A stretch of 64,000 nt of DNA. Origin: Phycisphaerae bacterium. Lineage in GTDB: Bacteria > Planctomycetota > Phycisphaerae > Sedimentisphaerales > Anaerobacaceae. Below are positions 19,430 to 62,548 of this stretch, one piece after another. The translations under genes and the position numbers were made by a program. Each line of letters starts with the position of its first letter. Positions within the stretch are counted from its first letter, which is position 1. The DNA lies in the NCBI GenBank assembly GCA_017993835.1, contig JAGOLX010000027.1:1-64000 (forward strand), read 5' to 3'. The notes beneath the pieces were generated by a model. The model was not told where the DNA came from and ran no database searches. It saw only the letters and a list, made by a program, of their open reading frames with translations.

Positions 19430-19513
19430 GTCATTCGTGCGCCAAGCAGGAATCCAGGAGCCGCAGGACCGGGCCCATCATGGACAGTGGATTCCCGCCT
19501 GCGCGGGAATGAC
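19430..19513. repeat. REPIN-like pair, GTCATTCCCGCG family (copy 1)
   Basis: A degenerate left unit (19430-19456, beginning GTCATTCGTGC and ending AATCCA) faces an inverted right unit (19488-19513, GTGGATTCCCGCC...GGGAATGAC). The right unit is itself a hairpin. A further 12-bp inverted pair GTTTGTAGGCAG/CTGCCTACAAAC at 19391-19402 and 19552-19563 surrounds it. The same family recurs at 48363-48445. Confidence 0.6.
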
Positions 19514-48362: not shown

Positions 48363-48445
48363 GTCATTCCCGCGAAAGCGGGAATCCACTCCCCGAATCG
48401 CGCCATATCCCACGGTCTCTGGATTCCTGCTTTCGCAGGAATGAC
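48363..48445. repeat. REPIN-like pair, GTCATTCCCGCG family (copy 2)
   Basis: Left unit 48363-48388 and inverted right unit 48420-48445 (26 bases each) are separated by 31 bases. They differ at two positions that pair with each other inside each hairpin (C-G in one, T-A in the other), a compensatory change. Same family as 19488-19513. The rest of the 395-base gap between the PqaA-like and the small membrane gene shows no gene. Confidence 0.75.
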
Positions 48446-56235: not shown

Positions 56236-56607
56236 TCAGCGGGTGCTGTTGATGTCGGACAGATTCGTGTCGGATGCGCCCAGGCCATTGTGGTCCCGGG
56301 CATATGCCTGCGTGGCGGCGCCGTTCATGTCGGCAATCGGTCGTCCCTGTCGTCCCGCAGGTACGCCGAACCGAACGATCACGGACGCCGTGACGATGAC
56401 CGCCGCGGCCACACCCGCCCAGCGTACCCACCGCGACCACATCGGGACGCAGCGAGTCGCCGGTTGCCCCTCGCCGGCCACAGGGATGCCCGCCATGAGC
56501 CGGCCCCTGAGCGACGAAGGCGGCTCGACCGCAGACATCGCCTTCAGTTGCCTCCGGACCCAATCCAGCGAGACCTCTTCGTGCCCGTATCCAGGATTTG
56601 TATTCAT
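56236..56607 (-). CDS. Putative anti-sigma factor
   Basis: 123 aa from ATG 56607, behind AAAGGTGG; its first ATGA overlaps the sigma gene stop. Cytoplasmic N-terminal helix region (LDWVRRQLKAMSAVEPPSSLR), one membrane helix (AGVAAAVIVTASVIVRFG) and a short periplasmic tail. No zinc-binding HxxxCxxC motif is visible, so it is not a classic ZAS-domain anti-sigma. Position, topology and coupling to the sigma gene nevertheless argue for a transmembrane inhibitor of the preceding ECF factor. Confidence 0.6.
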   Translation of the reverse strand: MNTNPGYGHEEVSLDWVRRQLKAMSAVEPPSSLRGRLMAGIPVAGEGQPATRCVPMWSRWVRWAGVAAAVIVTASVIVRFGVPAGRQGRPIADMNGAATQAYARDHNGLGASDTNLSDINSTR

Positions 56608-57155
56608 GGTTCCACCTTTCCGGCCAGTCGTTTCCGCAGATTCTCCAGGGCTCGGCTCGTGATCCACTTGACGGTCCCGTTCGGCCGCCTGAGGGTTCGG
56701 GCCATTTCCCGATAGCTCTGGCCGTCTACATAGTGCAGCAGCAGTGCCGTTCGCTCGTCGAGATCGAGTCCTTGCAGCGCGAGGGCAACCTGCGAGACAC
56801 ATTCATCCGCCACGATCCCGGCCAGCGGGTCATCCGCGACGTCGCAATCGCAACCGGACAACGCACCGGCAAGTGTCTTGTCCCGCTCGCGTCGCCGCTG
56901 TGCGTCGAGGAACGCGTGGTACGCGATTCGGTGCAGCCAGGTCCGGATCGACGAGTCGCCCCGGAAGCCGTCCAGCGACCGCCAGGCCGAAGCGAACACC
57001 TCCTGCGTCAGGTCCTCGGCAAGGTGCGCATCGCCCCCCAGAAACAGGAGAAACCGATAGACGGACCGGTAGTGCGTGTCGACGACCTCGACGTACGCCT
57101 CGCGCCGCCCTTGACGAAGGGCCTTGAGAGTCCGTCGTTCAGCTCGATCCCGCAC
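56604..57155 (-). CDS. ECF RNA polymerase sigma factor
   Basis: 183 aa, GTG start at 57155. Sigma2 region: HYRSVYRFLLFLGGDAHLAE and DLTQEVFASAWRSLDGFR; sigma4 region: LDLDERTALLLHYVDGQSYR and EMARTLRRPNGTVKWITSRA. A cysteine pair (GCDCDVADD) sits in the linker. Controls a regulon in response to an extracytoplasmic signal, presumably with the adjacent membrane protein. The 250 bases upstream hold no gene; a promoter could not be identified with confidence. Confidence 0.88.
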   Translation of the reverse strand: MRDRAERRTLKALRQGRREAYVEVVDTHYRSVYRFLLFLGGDAHLAEDLTQEVFASAWRSLDGFRGDSSIRTWLHRIAYHAFLDAQRRRERDKTLAGALSGCDCDVADDPLAGIVADECVSQVALALQGLDLDERTALLLHYVDGQSYREMARTLRRPNGTVKWITSRALENLRKRLAGKVEP

Positions 57156-57410
57156 GCAACGTCTCCACGACCAGGCCTACCCAGACTGCGAACGCGGCCC
57201 ATTTTCCCCCATAGACGACGAAAATGCCACAGGTGTTGGCGCATTCCGCCACGGGATTCCCCCTCACGCAGTCCGATGGCGCGACAGAATGACGCAGTCA
57301 CAACGCCAGCGCCAGGCATACGTGAGCCGGCATCAATGCCCACTCGCTTCGGGGCTGGCACCATGTCCGAAAGCCCGGACCTCTACGCCAATTCCCAACC
57401 CTCGCGGCAT

Positions 57411-57776
57411 GTCATTGCGAGCGCAGCGAAGCAATCTCCCGCTCACTACATGGACAGGTCCCTCCATTCGGGATTGAGCAACTCAATGAGTCGTATCTTC
57501 TTTGCCCGGGAGCCTGCTTTGATCCGCTTCTCTGCGGCGATCGCGTCAGTAATCCGACAGAACTCCTCGTAGAAGACCAGTTTGTGGGTTTTGTACTTGC
57601 TCGTGAAGGCCGAGCCCGTGCCGGCCTTGTGTTGAGCCACCCTCCTCGCCAGGCTGTTCGTGACGCCGGTATACAACACACGGTTGCCGCCATTCGTCAT
57701 GATGTAGACCCAGTAACTGCGCACATCATTCTCCCTGGGGTGGAGATTGCTTCGTCGCTTCGCTCCTCGCAATGAC
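57411..57776. mobile_element. REP - GIY-YIG gene - inverted REP element
   Basis: A REP unit at 57411-57438 (starts GTCATTGCGAG, ends AAGCAATCTC) and its inverted partner at 57743-57776 (GAGATTGC...CTCGCAATGAC) tightly enclose the GIY-YIG gene: 7 bases from the left unit to the stop, 18 bases from the start codon to the right unit. Total 366 bp. The two units match apart from a 6-base indel. Two further forward copies are immediately downstream (57882-57909, 57973-58000). Confidence 0.6.
57446..57724 (-). CDS. GIY-YIG endonuclease (UPF0213-like, URI domain)
   Basis: 92 aa from GTG 57724, behind AGGGAG; the frame is open to 57937, but that longer reading translates the REP repeat and is not protein-like. 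The chain SYWVYIMTNGGNRVLYTGVT contains the GIY (VYI) and YIG (YTG) motifs, then NSLARRVAQHK with the catalytic-site Arg, FYEEFCRITDAIAAEKRIK with Glu65, and LIELLNPEW with Asn84: a complete single-domain nuclease. Such small GIY-YIG proteins are widespread, poorly characterised and often occur as isolated accessory genes. Here it lies exactly between inverted REP units, which suggests that it belongs to a small mobile unit. Confidence 0.85.
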   Translation of the reverse strand: MRSYWVYIMTNGGNRVLYTGVTNSLARRVAQHKAGTGSAFTSKYKTHKLVFYEEFCRITDAIAAEKRIKAGSRAKKIRLIELLNPEWRDLSM

Positions 57777-57881
57777 ATTCCGCGCGTTGTTGCGCCACAT
57801 GCGTGAAGCGGAGCACGCTCCATCCCAACGTCCGCAAAGCCTGTGGAACAGGCTCTCACCGCAGCCACAGCGCGACGCCAT

Positions 57882-58000
57882 GTCGCTGCGAGCGCAGCGA
57901 GGCAATCCCGCGTCCCGTCCTGCACGCACAAGACCATGGAACAGAAGACGGCTGCCGTTGCGCCACAAGCATGTCATTGCGAGCGGAGCGAAGCAATCTC
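57882..58000. repeat. Two more GTCATTGCGAG-family REP units
   Basis: 57882-57909 (degenerate: GTCGCTGCGAGC...GGCAATCCC) and 57973-58000 (GTCATTGCGAGCGGAGCGAA then GCAATCTC) in the same orientation. A partial repeat GTTGCGCCACA precedes both a copy near 57791 and one near 57958. Confidence 0.7.
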
Positions 58001-58039
58001 CCAACTATCGGACAGCGGCCCGAACCACGGACGGCCAAG

Positions 58040-59227
58040 TTAGCCCAGCCACTTCTCCATGCGATCGAGGCCCTTGGTGATCTGCTGCATCGAGGTCGCG
58101 AAGCTGAGACGCACGTTCTTGTCGCAGCCGAAGGGCAGGCCCGGCACAACGCCCACGGTCCCCTGCTCGAGCAGGGCCTTGGCGAAGTCCATGCTGCCGG
58201 TGACTTTGACGCCGCCGAAGGTCCGGCCGTAATGCGCGGACACGTCGGGGAAGCAGTAGAACGCCCCGGTCGGCTCGGTGCATTCGACGCCCTTCATGGC
58301 CCGCAGACGCTCGGCCATGTACTTGCCACGCTTCTCGAACTCGACGCGCATCTTCTCGATGGTCTCCGCGGACTGGGGTCCCATGGCCGCGATGGCCGCG
58401 TATTGGGCGAACGTGACGGGGTTGCTGGTCATGTGGTCCTGCAGGCGGGACATTGCCTTAATGACGTCGAGCGGGCCCGCGGTGTAGCCGAGCCGCCAGC
58501 CGGTCATCGAGTAGGCCTTGCTCAGACCGTTGAGGGTCAGCGTGCGGTTGTACGCATCGGCGCTCAGGGCCGCGAAGCTGATGAACTTCGTGTCGCCGTA
58601 GATGAGCTTCTCGTAAATCTCATCCGACATGACGACGACGTTCGTGCCTTCGAGCACCTTGGCCAGGGCGCGAAGCTCGTCGGGCGTATAGGTGAACCCG
58701 CCGGGATTGCTGGGCGAGTTGAGGATCAGCATCGCGGTCTTGGGGCCGATCGCCTTCTTCAACTGCTCCGGCGTGATCTTGTAGCTGTTGGCCTTGTCCG
58801 TCTCGAGGACCTTCACGGTCGCACCGGCCAGGGAGGCCGCTTCGGGATAGGTCACCCAGTACGGGGCGGGCAGCAGCAGCTCGTCGCCGGGATCGAGGAC
58901 GGCCTGCATCGCTTCGTAGACCGAGTGTTTGCCGCCGATATTCACGACGATCTGGTCGGCGGTGTACGTGAGCCCGTTGTCCTTCTTGAGCTTGGCGGCG
59001 ATGGCCTCGCGCAGTTCCGGAATGCCCTTGGCAGGGGTATACTTGGTCTTGCCTTCCTTGAGGGCCTTGATCGCGGCTTCCTTGATGTAGTCCGGCGTGT
59101 CGAAGTCGGGCTCTCCGGCGCCGAAACCGACCACATCGATCCCCTGGGCCTTCAGTTCCTTCGCTCGATTCGTGACGGCGAGCGTCGCCGACGGGGCAAC
59201 CGCTTTGGCTCTCTGGCTAACCTTCAT
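58040..59227 (-). CDS. aspC: Aspartate aminotransferase (class I, subgroup I-gamma/AspAT Ib)
   Basis: 395 aa from ATG 59227, behind GGAAAGG. Fold type I PLP enzyme: GFGAGEPDFDTPDYIKEAAIK, GGKHSVYEAMQAVLDPGDELL, NSPSNPGG (usual SPSNPTG), VVVMSDEIYEKLIYGD, and the PLP lysine Lys237 in NGLSKAYSMTGWRLGY. Transfers the amino group between aspartate and 2-oxoglutarate, and possibly other keto acids (prephenate). Sigma70 promoter about 100 bases upstream. REP-rich DNA follows its stop. Confidence 0.92.
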   Translation of the reverse strand: MKVSQRAKAVAPSATLAVTNRAKELKAQGIDVVGFGAGEPDFDTPDYIKEAAIKALKEGKTKYTPAKGIPELREAIAAKLKKDNGLTYTADQIVVNIGGKHSVYEAMQAVLDPGDELLLPAPYWVTYPEAASLAGATVKVLETDKANSYKITPEQLKKAIGPKTAMLILNSPSNPGGFTYTPDELRALAKVLEGTNVVVMSDEIYEKLIYGDTKFISFAALSADAYNRTLTLNGLSKAYSMTGWRLGYTAGPLDVIKAMSRLQDHMTSNPVTFAQYAAIAAMGPQSAETIEKMRVEFEKRGKYMAERLRAMKGVECTEPTGAFYCFPDVSAHYGRTFGGVKVTGSMDFAKALLEQGTVGVVPGLPFGCDKNVRLSFATSMQQITKGLDRMEKWLG

Positions 59228-59330
59228 CTGCGCAAACCTTTCCAATGCGTAGTCTATTGTCTGAAGATGGGACCGGCGACCGCGGGGGCACAAACCCACA
59301 GGCACCAGCCTTCGGACTGAACCAGCGGGA

Positions 59331-59359
59331 TATCTAAGCACAAATCCTCGCCCGGTCAA
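59331..59359 (-). promoter_or_regulatory. Promoter of the aspartate aminotransferase gene
   Basis: Minus-strand TTGACC (59359-59354), 17-base spacer, TAGATA (59336-59331). The leader to ATG 59227 is about 97 bases and has no obvious hairpin or riboswitch. Confidence 0.55.
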
Positions 59360-59547
59360 GAGAATTTGATCTCGCGACGACCCCGGCAGTCCACGCGGGG
59401 AATTGGCGCGTGCAGTCCGGACCGACTGCCGGCCGTCTGCAGGCACCATAACGTCAACCCCTCCCATCTTGGCAGGACGCCAGCAGATTTGGACGGCCAG
59501 GCGGATTCTCGGTTGCCCTCGGCGGCGACAGATGCATTCGTCACTGG

Positions 59548-59645
59548 TGTCACCAGTGTCACCGGAGATTTCCATCCTATTCTATATGGATGCAATTCGA
59601 ATTTCCCAGAGTATCAATGAAGAATTGCTGGTGACACTGGTGACA
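59548..59645. repeat. 16-bp inverted repeat before the GH36 gene
   Basis: TGTCACCAGTGTCACC (59548-59563) pairs perfectly with GGTGACACTGGTGACA (59630-59645), 66 bases apart; each half also contains a CACTGGTG-like short palindrome. The region between the AspC promoter and the GH36 start (59360-59791) has no gene. Confidence 0.6.
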
Positions 59646-62400: not shown

Positions 62401-62548
62401 GGCGAACGCAAAGTCGCCGGACGAGTCTCACGGATGTCATTGCGAGGAGCATCGCGACGAAGCAATCTCGATTTCCGGCGTGGGAGATTGCTTCGCTGCG
62501 CTCGCAATGACATTCCCGATAACTCTCTGAAACGACTTTGCGTTCGCC
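62401..62548. repeat. 148-bp nested palindrome containing a REPIN-like doublet
   Basis: Outer perfect 16-bp inverted repeat GGCGAACGCAAAGTCG (62401-62416) / CGACTTTGCGTTCGCC (62533-62548) surrounds an inverted pair of GTCATTGCGAG-family REP units (62436-62469 and 62484-62511) separated by 14 bases. The inner units belong to the same family as those bracketing the GIY-YIG gene, 5 kb away. Confidence 0.8.

Follow-up and report, generated by a model that had tools for sequence, protein, structure and literature searches.

Does a small nuclease gene that stands between two inverted REP units have a part in the spread of those repeats? The question is raised by a locus in a 64,000-nucleotide stretch of planctomycete DNA (the window), for which a first-pass annotation had suggested that a GIY-YIG enzyme takes the place of the Y1 transposase of REPs. 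The gene lies on the minus strand at 57446..57724 and is intact, with a GTG start at 57724 and a stop at 57446. It encodes a 92-residue GIY-YIG nuclease of the G-S-R subclade (KAGSRAKK), identified by PF01541 (E 9e-15, the only Pfam match at E <= 0.001), by alignment, by an AF2 model and by fold search. On its stop side is a short-type REP unit on the plus strand, TGTC-ATTGCGAGCGCAGCGAAGCAAT-CTCCC (57410..57440, core 57414-57438). On its start side is a long-type unit on the minus strand, TGTC-ATTGCGAGGAGCGAAGCGACGAAGCAAT-CTCC (57742..57777, core 57746-57773), inverted relative to the short-type unit. The domain match and the unit search thus bear out the complete gene between inverted units that had been described, and the reported gaps of 7 and 18 bases between gene and units are about right, varying with the repeat edge that is counted. 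Two solo units had been placed beyond the gene. Both are present, the first degenerate with three mismatches (57885..57907, plus strand) and the second of the short type (57972..58002, core 57976-58000, plus strand). A REPIN-like doublet of the same family, formerly placed near 62436-62511, was found at 62434..62513 and consists of a long-type unit (62439-62466, plus) and a short-type unit (62487-62508, minus). The gene therefore stands between a long and a short unit, the combination that also makes up the doublet at 62 kb, a feature not noted before.

The neighbouring genes encode a sigma-70-like factor (56604-57155) and an aminotransferase (58040-59575). A transposase domain was found in none of the five neighbouring frames tested, and a search of the whole genome did not find a second gene of the window type. 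Across the 6.37 Mb of this genome the pattern ATTGCGAGN{2,14}GAAGCAATC had 31 matches and the reversed control none. Folded as a single strand, the 62-kb doublet gave -28.4 and -28.2 kcal/mol (z of -6.2 and -6.8 against shuffles). The two gene-flanking units alone folded no better than shuffles (z +0.8 to +1.4), and solo REP units likewise folded no better than shuffles in the energy model. Two units of another type, REP-D (dRS3/CGTC-1 type), also occur in the window, at 19490-19511 (minus) and 48365-48386 (plus).

The conserved Tyr, Arg, His/Tyr, Glu and Asn of GIY-YIG enzymes have catalytic roles. The window protein has Y7, Y18, R28, H32, E65 and N84, all invariant in a 13-row alignment of the subclade, and both its fold and these conserved residues place it in the GIY-YIG superfamily. 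The AF2 model, made with 13 sequences, had a pLDDT of 93.1 and a pTM of 0.84. Its nearest solved fold, and the sole match below 0.001, was UPF0213 (1zg2, E 1.7e-4), and the protein resembles such stand-alone GIY-YIG proteins in fold and length. Weaker matches were Slx1, a structure-selective nuclease (E 0.03 and weaker), and the UvrC nuclease domain. Of 15 pairs taken for dN/dS, 2 were not computable; among the other 13, the ratio was 0.05-0.21 in 12, and the closest pair had 0.52. These values indicate purifying selection and hence a protein that works.

We then considered the repeats. The REP-A family, ATTGCGAG..GAAGCAAT, was represented by 56 distinct 28-nt units whose outer stem, ATTGC/GCAAT, was fixed by the search. 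In the inner stem 88.8% of the cells were paired, compared with 78.6% in shuffled units and at most 50.2% when the stem was slid, and 51 cells were changed on both sides against a shuffled mean of 18.5. Counted instead by pairs that show any double change (5 vs. 4.0), the units were within the range of the shuffles (80/500). The commonest non-pairs of the inner stem, at columns 9-19 and 10-18, were G.A and A.G (19/56 and 22/56), which together form a tandem G.A motif. GCGAAGC, a DNA mini-hairpin of well-known stability, is frequent at the apex. Between families the outer stems change on both sides and keep their plan, being ATTGC/GCAAT in A, ATTCT/AGAAT in B and ATCCT/AGGAT in C, as seen by comparison and with no formal count.

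The tag of REP-A is GTC, mostly TGTC. It occupied columns -3 to -1 in all 31 units of one genome (G138) and in 97-100% of the 39 units of another (G000). In G138 conservation begins at GTC|ATTGCGAG, the letters after the tag being fixed by the search, and is at background level outside; in G000 it begins at GTC before ATTGCGAG too, with some longer sharing. Because conservation ends at the tag, the doublets, about 80-90 bp long, are discrete units whose surroundings are mostly unrelated. Head-to-head doublets were present in 20 of 21 genomes, compared with 0 for the reversed control. The combination of a long and a short unit was seen in doublets of G000 and G138, with no formal count over all doublets.

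The association of gene and repeat was examined in two initial sets, the 30 best loci of the phylum and 80 loci obtained by searching bacterial and archaeal genomes with the G-S-R alignment, the latter being the top 80 among at least 571 relatives. At the 30 phylum loci G-S-R genes had close inverted REP-A units, often 15 nt past the match end and 35-50 nt before the match start, and genes with W in place of GS (W genes) were mostly without them. Over these 110 loci a REP-A half-site lay within 120 bp of 83/83 G-S-R genes and on both sides of 64. REP-A was absent from 17 of 22 W genes and stood on both sides of four of five others. Forty further loci had REP-A on both sides of 2/2 G-S-R genes and none at 24/28 W genes and 8/10 others; for W genes these early counts of unflanked genes hold for REP-A and REP-B only.

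REP-B was first seen on a Planktothrix plasmid, where a KGW-type gene lies amid TGTCATTCTGAG..GAAGAATCTC arrays. Across 151 loci it accompanied 17 of 27 KGWxRxKK genes vs. 1 of 85 G-S-R genes. The rule was retested on loci not used to find it, with 50 genomes reached by a KGW query from the loci of the bacterial and archaeal scan, and with motif words of 9 letters where there had been 10. REP-B was on both sides of 12/20 xWxR.KK genes, 0/7 G-[SNPA]-R genes and 0/16 xWxR.WK genes, and REP-A was on both sides of 5/7 G-[SNPA]-R genes. A variant, C (ATCCTGAG..GAAGGAT), was found along with REP-B. A test free of motifs, which took the longest exact match of one flank of a gene to the other flank inverted, gave at least 11 bp for 57/95 G-[SNPA]-R, 17/39 xWxR.KK and 15/37 xWxR.WK genes, compared with 5/285, 0/117 and 1/111 shuffles, respectively. 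It was because of this test that a fourth hairpin, GTCATTCCCGCGNAAGCGGGAATCCA (REP-D), was found around xWxR.WK genes. These genes were accordingly dropped as a negative control, since the REP-D family surrounds them.

The link therefore extends, beyond what the first-pass annotation had described, to other GIY-YIG subclades with other REPs. We scored 177 full-length genes (at least 80 aa) out of 205 distinct genes in 241 loci. REP-A is the partner of G-[SNPA]-R genes; the hairpins of xWxR.KK genes are of the ATTCTGAG/ATCCTGAG types (B/C), whose words are one letter apart and inseparable when one mismatch is allowed; and that of xWxR.WK genes is ATTCCCGC..GCGGGAAT (REP-D), the neisserial dRS3 type, whose letters are, in our reading, those of the dRS3 consensus. 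Every one of the 95 G-[SNPA]-R genes had REP-A within 150 bp, on both sides in 79, so that homologues of the window gene are indeed nearly always flanked by REPs. Among 37 xWxR.KK genes, B was present at 30 and on both sides of 24, and A was on both sides of 4. Among 38 xWxR.WK genes, D was present at 32 and on both sides of 18, none had A, B or C on both sides, and 20 were without a family on both sides. When a single family stood on both sides, it was A for 77 G-[SNPA]-R genes, B/C for 27 and A for 4 xWxR.KK genes, and D for 18 xWxR.WK genes. Of the 126 genes that a single family brackets, 122 thus fit the pairing of subclade and hairpin, in a count for which families C and D were defined after all loci had been seen. 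Two G-[SNPA]-R genes had both A and D, and 42 genes had a family on one side or none. The count omits three UPF0213-like rows and keeps apart four other rows (A on both sides of 2, D of 2), two of which are G-S-R genes (L090, L102) that the class pattern missed, both with A. In the later-fetched set alone the pairing fits 27/29, C and D having been defined with that set in view. The G-[SNPA]-R genes with REP-A on both sides include members of 16 named phyla.

For comparison, a loose half-site occurred in only 9% of 362 control intervals (150-bp stretches 550-700 bp from the genes), and the background per interval was 5-9% overall. Of 22 other GIY-YIG stretches in REP-bearing genomes none was bracketed by a single family; this set includes two pieces resembling UvrC, a spurious match and a gene counted twice. 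Unlike the genes of the subclades above, full-length UPF0213-like rows had a family on both sides in only 1/3, with one mismatch allowed. The GS/W position falls in the turn between the last two helices according to the alignment and the AF2 model. On a tree of 171 proteins, stringent labels (A, B or none) on 138 rows needed 8 changes; this tree is poorly resolved, with 24 of 168 inner branches starred, and is built from few columns, the GS/W site among them.

At the genome level, 392 genomes of the phylum were compared, 95 of which have a relative at E <= 1e-5. REP-A was found in 14/14 genomes with an identified G-S-R gene (3-253 copies, median 28.5) and in 25/378 other genomes (median 9 among those; Fisher p 8e-16). 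REP-D was found in 12/18 genomes with an xWxR.WK gene vs. 25/374 without (p 1e-9). These Fisher values overstate independence, as genomes of one phylum are related, and the figures of 14 and 18 are lower bounds, matches weaker than about 1e-10 being mostly unclassified. The gene of one of the 14 genomes (G358) has a stop codon; of the 18, one gene has a stop (G374) and one is a fragment (G345). Copy number among REP-A carriers was higher in genomes with the gene (p 0.005), a comparison that the first-pass annotation had called for. The refuting observation that it had named, repeats just as frequent where the gene is missing, was not borne out for the phylum as a whole and was borne out in part by some genomes that are rich in REPs. 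G248 and G138, with 103 and 49 copies of REP-A, have only other GIY-YIG subfamilies, and G168, with 105 copies, has REP-flanked remnants of the nuclease gene (codons 64-89). The xWxR.WK gene was not found in the window's own genome, which has 168 REP-D by pattern, and G126, with 257 REP-D, had no GIY-YIG match at E 1e-5. According to passages of PMC3733652, REPtrons were lost after their spread in some species. In our reading, the REP-rich genomes without the gene may likewise have lost their enzyme after spread.

Tag and plan place the repeats in the CGTC superfamily that Di Nocera et al. 2013 described (PMC3733652), a kinship that had not been recognised in the first-pass annotation. They have an unpaired CGTC or TGTC tag before an AT stem and mostly form head-to-head dimers; the sections of that survey on the superfamily describe a CGTC or TGTC tag, stems that start with AT, and head-to-head dimers that are often heterodimers. 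In the same sections the superfamily includes dRS3, the CGTC-1 elements of Neisseriae, and the rickettsial RPE-6/RPE-4. These REPs are said there to 'apparently lack a dedicated transposase', which was left as an open question. In contrast to that survey, which found no enzyme dedicated to these repeats, the present work links them to a GIY-YIG gene. A search of the open-licence literature, mainly of titles and abstract openings, found no GIY-YIG link to REP repeats among the matches listed, which does not by itself show its absence in print. The matches listed for short REP DNA words were unrelated, and longer words and peptide words gave none. In the part of PMC9465073 concerned, RAYT and GIY-YIG endonuclease are merely separate rows of a gene list.

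The tight subclade-specific linkage, the covariation of the hairpins, the discrete ends of the doublets, the purifying selection and the decayed REP-flanked remnants argue that the GIY-YIG gene is probably the dedicated partner enzyme of the CGTC/TGTC REPs that flank it, each subclade being cognate to its own hairpin. The linkage and its subclade specificity are seen directly in the genomes; that the enzyme cuts DNA, where it cuts and that it mobilises the repeats are what we infer from them. The earlier suggestion that a GIY-YIG enzyme replaces the Y1 transposase of REPs thus passed the computational tests of linkage and of genome-level association, and its mobilising part still has the standing of a proposal. 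In such a mechanism, the nuclease would recognise its cognate tagged hairpin, probably as single-stranded or cruciform DNA at replication forks, and would nick or cut it at or near the GTC tag. Repair or re-ligation elsewhere could then spread the pair of hairpins, whether or not the gene lies between them. REP-gene-REP would be the autonomous unit, and REPIN-like doublets and solo units would be its non-autonomous derivatives.

The main rival, which we consider unlikely, is that the gene is a homing endonuclease that invades gene-less REP doublets by cutting and repair and that the repeats spread otherwise. GIY-YIG is a known fold of homing endonucleases, and in homing endonucleases and Penelope-like retroelements, too, the nuclease lies within a mobile DNA unit (text of PMC1564403 on these elements). 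The window gene sits between a long and a short unit, the pair that also forms gene-less doublets, but flanking units in other genomes are not always one long and one short. Unlike those systems, the 92-aa protein has no extra DNA-binding domain, intron or reverse transcriptase, and its repeats are dispersed whereas a homing endonuclease has one allelic target site. Homing enzymes cut gene-less sites; here, however, the subclade tracks the repeat sequence across phyla, and the presence of REPs tracks the gene, which fits an enzyme in the service of the repeat. An orthologous site, or doublet, with and without the nuclease gene was not seen among the loci searched, and no insertion event was caught among the loci compared. 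For two doublet loci of genome G088, two congeners and four other relatives were searched for empty sites, and no clean one was found. In the congener G239 the gene end and a further stretch match at one locus, and 186 unalignable bases replace about 403. The unit is thus absent there, though no joint is readable.

It is quite improbable that RAYT (Y1) or other TIR transposases mobilise the REPs and that the GIY-YIG gene is their cargo. Y1_Tnp matches occurred in all 14 genomes tested, but an exact REP-A half-site was found within 400 bp of the stretch centre at 0 of 30 Y1 loci examined, which are part of the matches listed and include three (L230, L235, L246) that are clipped by a contig end, so that the centre is not the gene's. 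A RAYT adjoining the same REPs was therefore rejected for these loci. Di Nocera et al., in their passages on CGTC repeats (PMC3733652), likewise found no tyrosine transposase gene flanked by them, and a cargo gene would not follow the repeat sequence by subclade. On the other side, doublets in G088 ride in a MITE with its own terminal repeats. This 158-bp element has inverted ends of about 24 bp starting with CTAGTA (L166:1463-1621) and recurs in about 24 further places in G088 at roughly 87-98% identity, some of them only partial. Carriers of other kinds also spread REP doublets. The inverted ends belong to the 158-bp carrier; in G138 it is the tag itself that terminates the units. G088 also has eight copies (L143-L150) of a REP-flanked derivative of the nuclease gene, about 200 bp (201 bp) long and with one shared internal deletion, which sit within a larger shared unit. 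Because its doublets lie in the MITE and its derivatives in the larger unit, copy number in G088 may be the work of another enzyme. We have withdrawn the multi-copy derivatives as proof of REP-to-REP movement, in view of the larger shared units and of the MITE with its other ends.

We regard it as very unlikely that the flanking repeats serve to regulate a housekeeping repair nuclease, be it as terminators, mRNA stabilisers or autoregulatory operators, and that their genome-wide spread is unrelated. Repair nucleases are among the nearest folds, and a role of REPs in termination and in the stability of mRNA has been hypothesised (PMC3733652). However, the same units are scattered as discrete doublets amid unrelated flanks, the orientation and distance of the gene-flanking units vary among loci, and a relative at E 1e-5 is found in only 95/392 genomes of the phylum, unlike a housekeeping gene. 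That REPs merely pile up by chance in the intergenic gaps beside small genes is scarcely credible, since REPs are mostly intergenic (in the account of PMC3733652) but the background of 5-9% stands against 95/95, sister-subclade genes in the same genomes are mostly without REP-A, and the other GIY-YIG stretches gave 0/22.

The partner enzyme and its repeats resemble the RAYT/REPtron/REPIN system in several respects. Both have short imperfect palindromes with a fixed unpaired tag, which occur as solo units, inverted doublets and clusters, and in both an enzyme gene lies between or beside repeats of the same family, in family-specific enzyme-repeat pairs. The enzyme here is a GIY-YIG nuclease of about 90 aa, whereas that of RAYT is an HUH/Y1 transposase (PF01797), and the tag is TGTC/CGTC rather than GTAG. 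GIY-YIG enzymes are not known to pass through a covalent protein-DNA step. The system resembles RAYT by function and yet fails its defining features, and because the Y1 enzyme and the GTAG tag are absent we do not file it under RAYT.

For one large class of REPs the enzyme behind their spread has been missing, and the nuclease is so far the strongest candidate for it. CGTC REPs, including dRS3 and the Rickettsia RPE, have lacked an enzyme, and the candidate is small, comes with a prediction of specificity and is directly testable. If the proposal is true, it would suggest at least two origins of REP/REPIN systems, with enzymes that are unrelated, one more fold would join the bacterial mobilising nucleases, and many short palindromes in metagenome-assembled genomes would be accounted for. 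There is a fair chance that the system will rank as a new class once mobilisation is shown. The broader claim is evenly balanced: one GIY-YIG family of about 90 aa may mobilise the whole CGTC superfamily, from planctomycete and chloroflexote REPs to dRS3 and alphaproteobacterial palindromes, with a few residues at one helix turn (GS versus W) accompanying the switch of hairpin. It would then be a new class of bacterial mobile element whose sole enzyme is a hairpin-specific GIY-YIG nuclease that co-diversifies with its repeat.

Homologues from a plasmid collection (39 matches, 14 regions analysed, of which L221 was in the first set and 13 came later) had an inverted flank match of at least 11 bases in 11/13 cases vs. 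0/65 shuffles, the two failures being from Photobacterium and R. tumorigenes. These plasmid loci are the independent evidence as regards the CGTC type at large. A homologue from the gonococcus stands between REP-D units, and the palindromes at rhizobial, azospirillar and sphingomonad genes are, by eye, of the CGTCATCC, CGTCACCC or CGTCGCCC type.

Units of the form ATTGCGAG..GTGGCAATC occur close to four xWxR.RK genes (KSWSR/KSWNR; L052, L191, L348, L357), and the two may constitute a fifth enzyme-hairpin pair. On the Planktothrix agardhii plasmid (L221), the KGW-type gene and its REP-B arrays have an MmeI-like restriction gene on one side and the DISARM gene drmA on the other. On a plasmid of Azospirillum lipoferum 4B (L463), the gene and its CGTC-type units lie between sufB and sufC, apparently within an operon.
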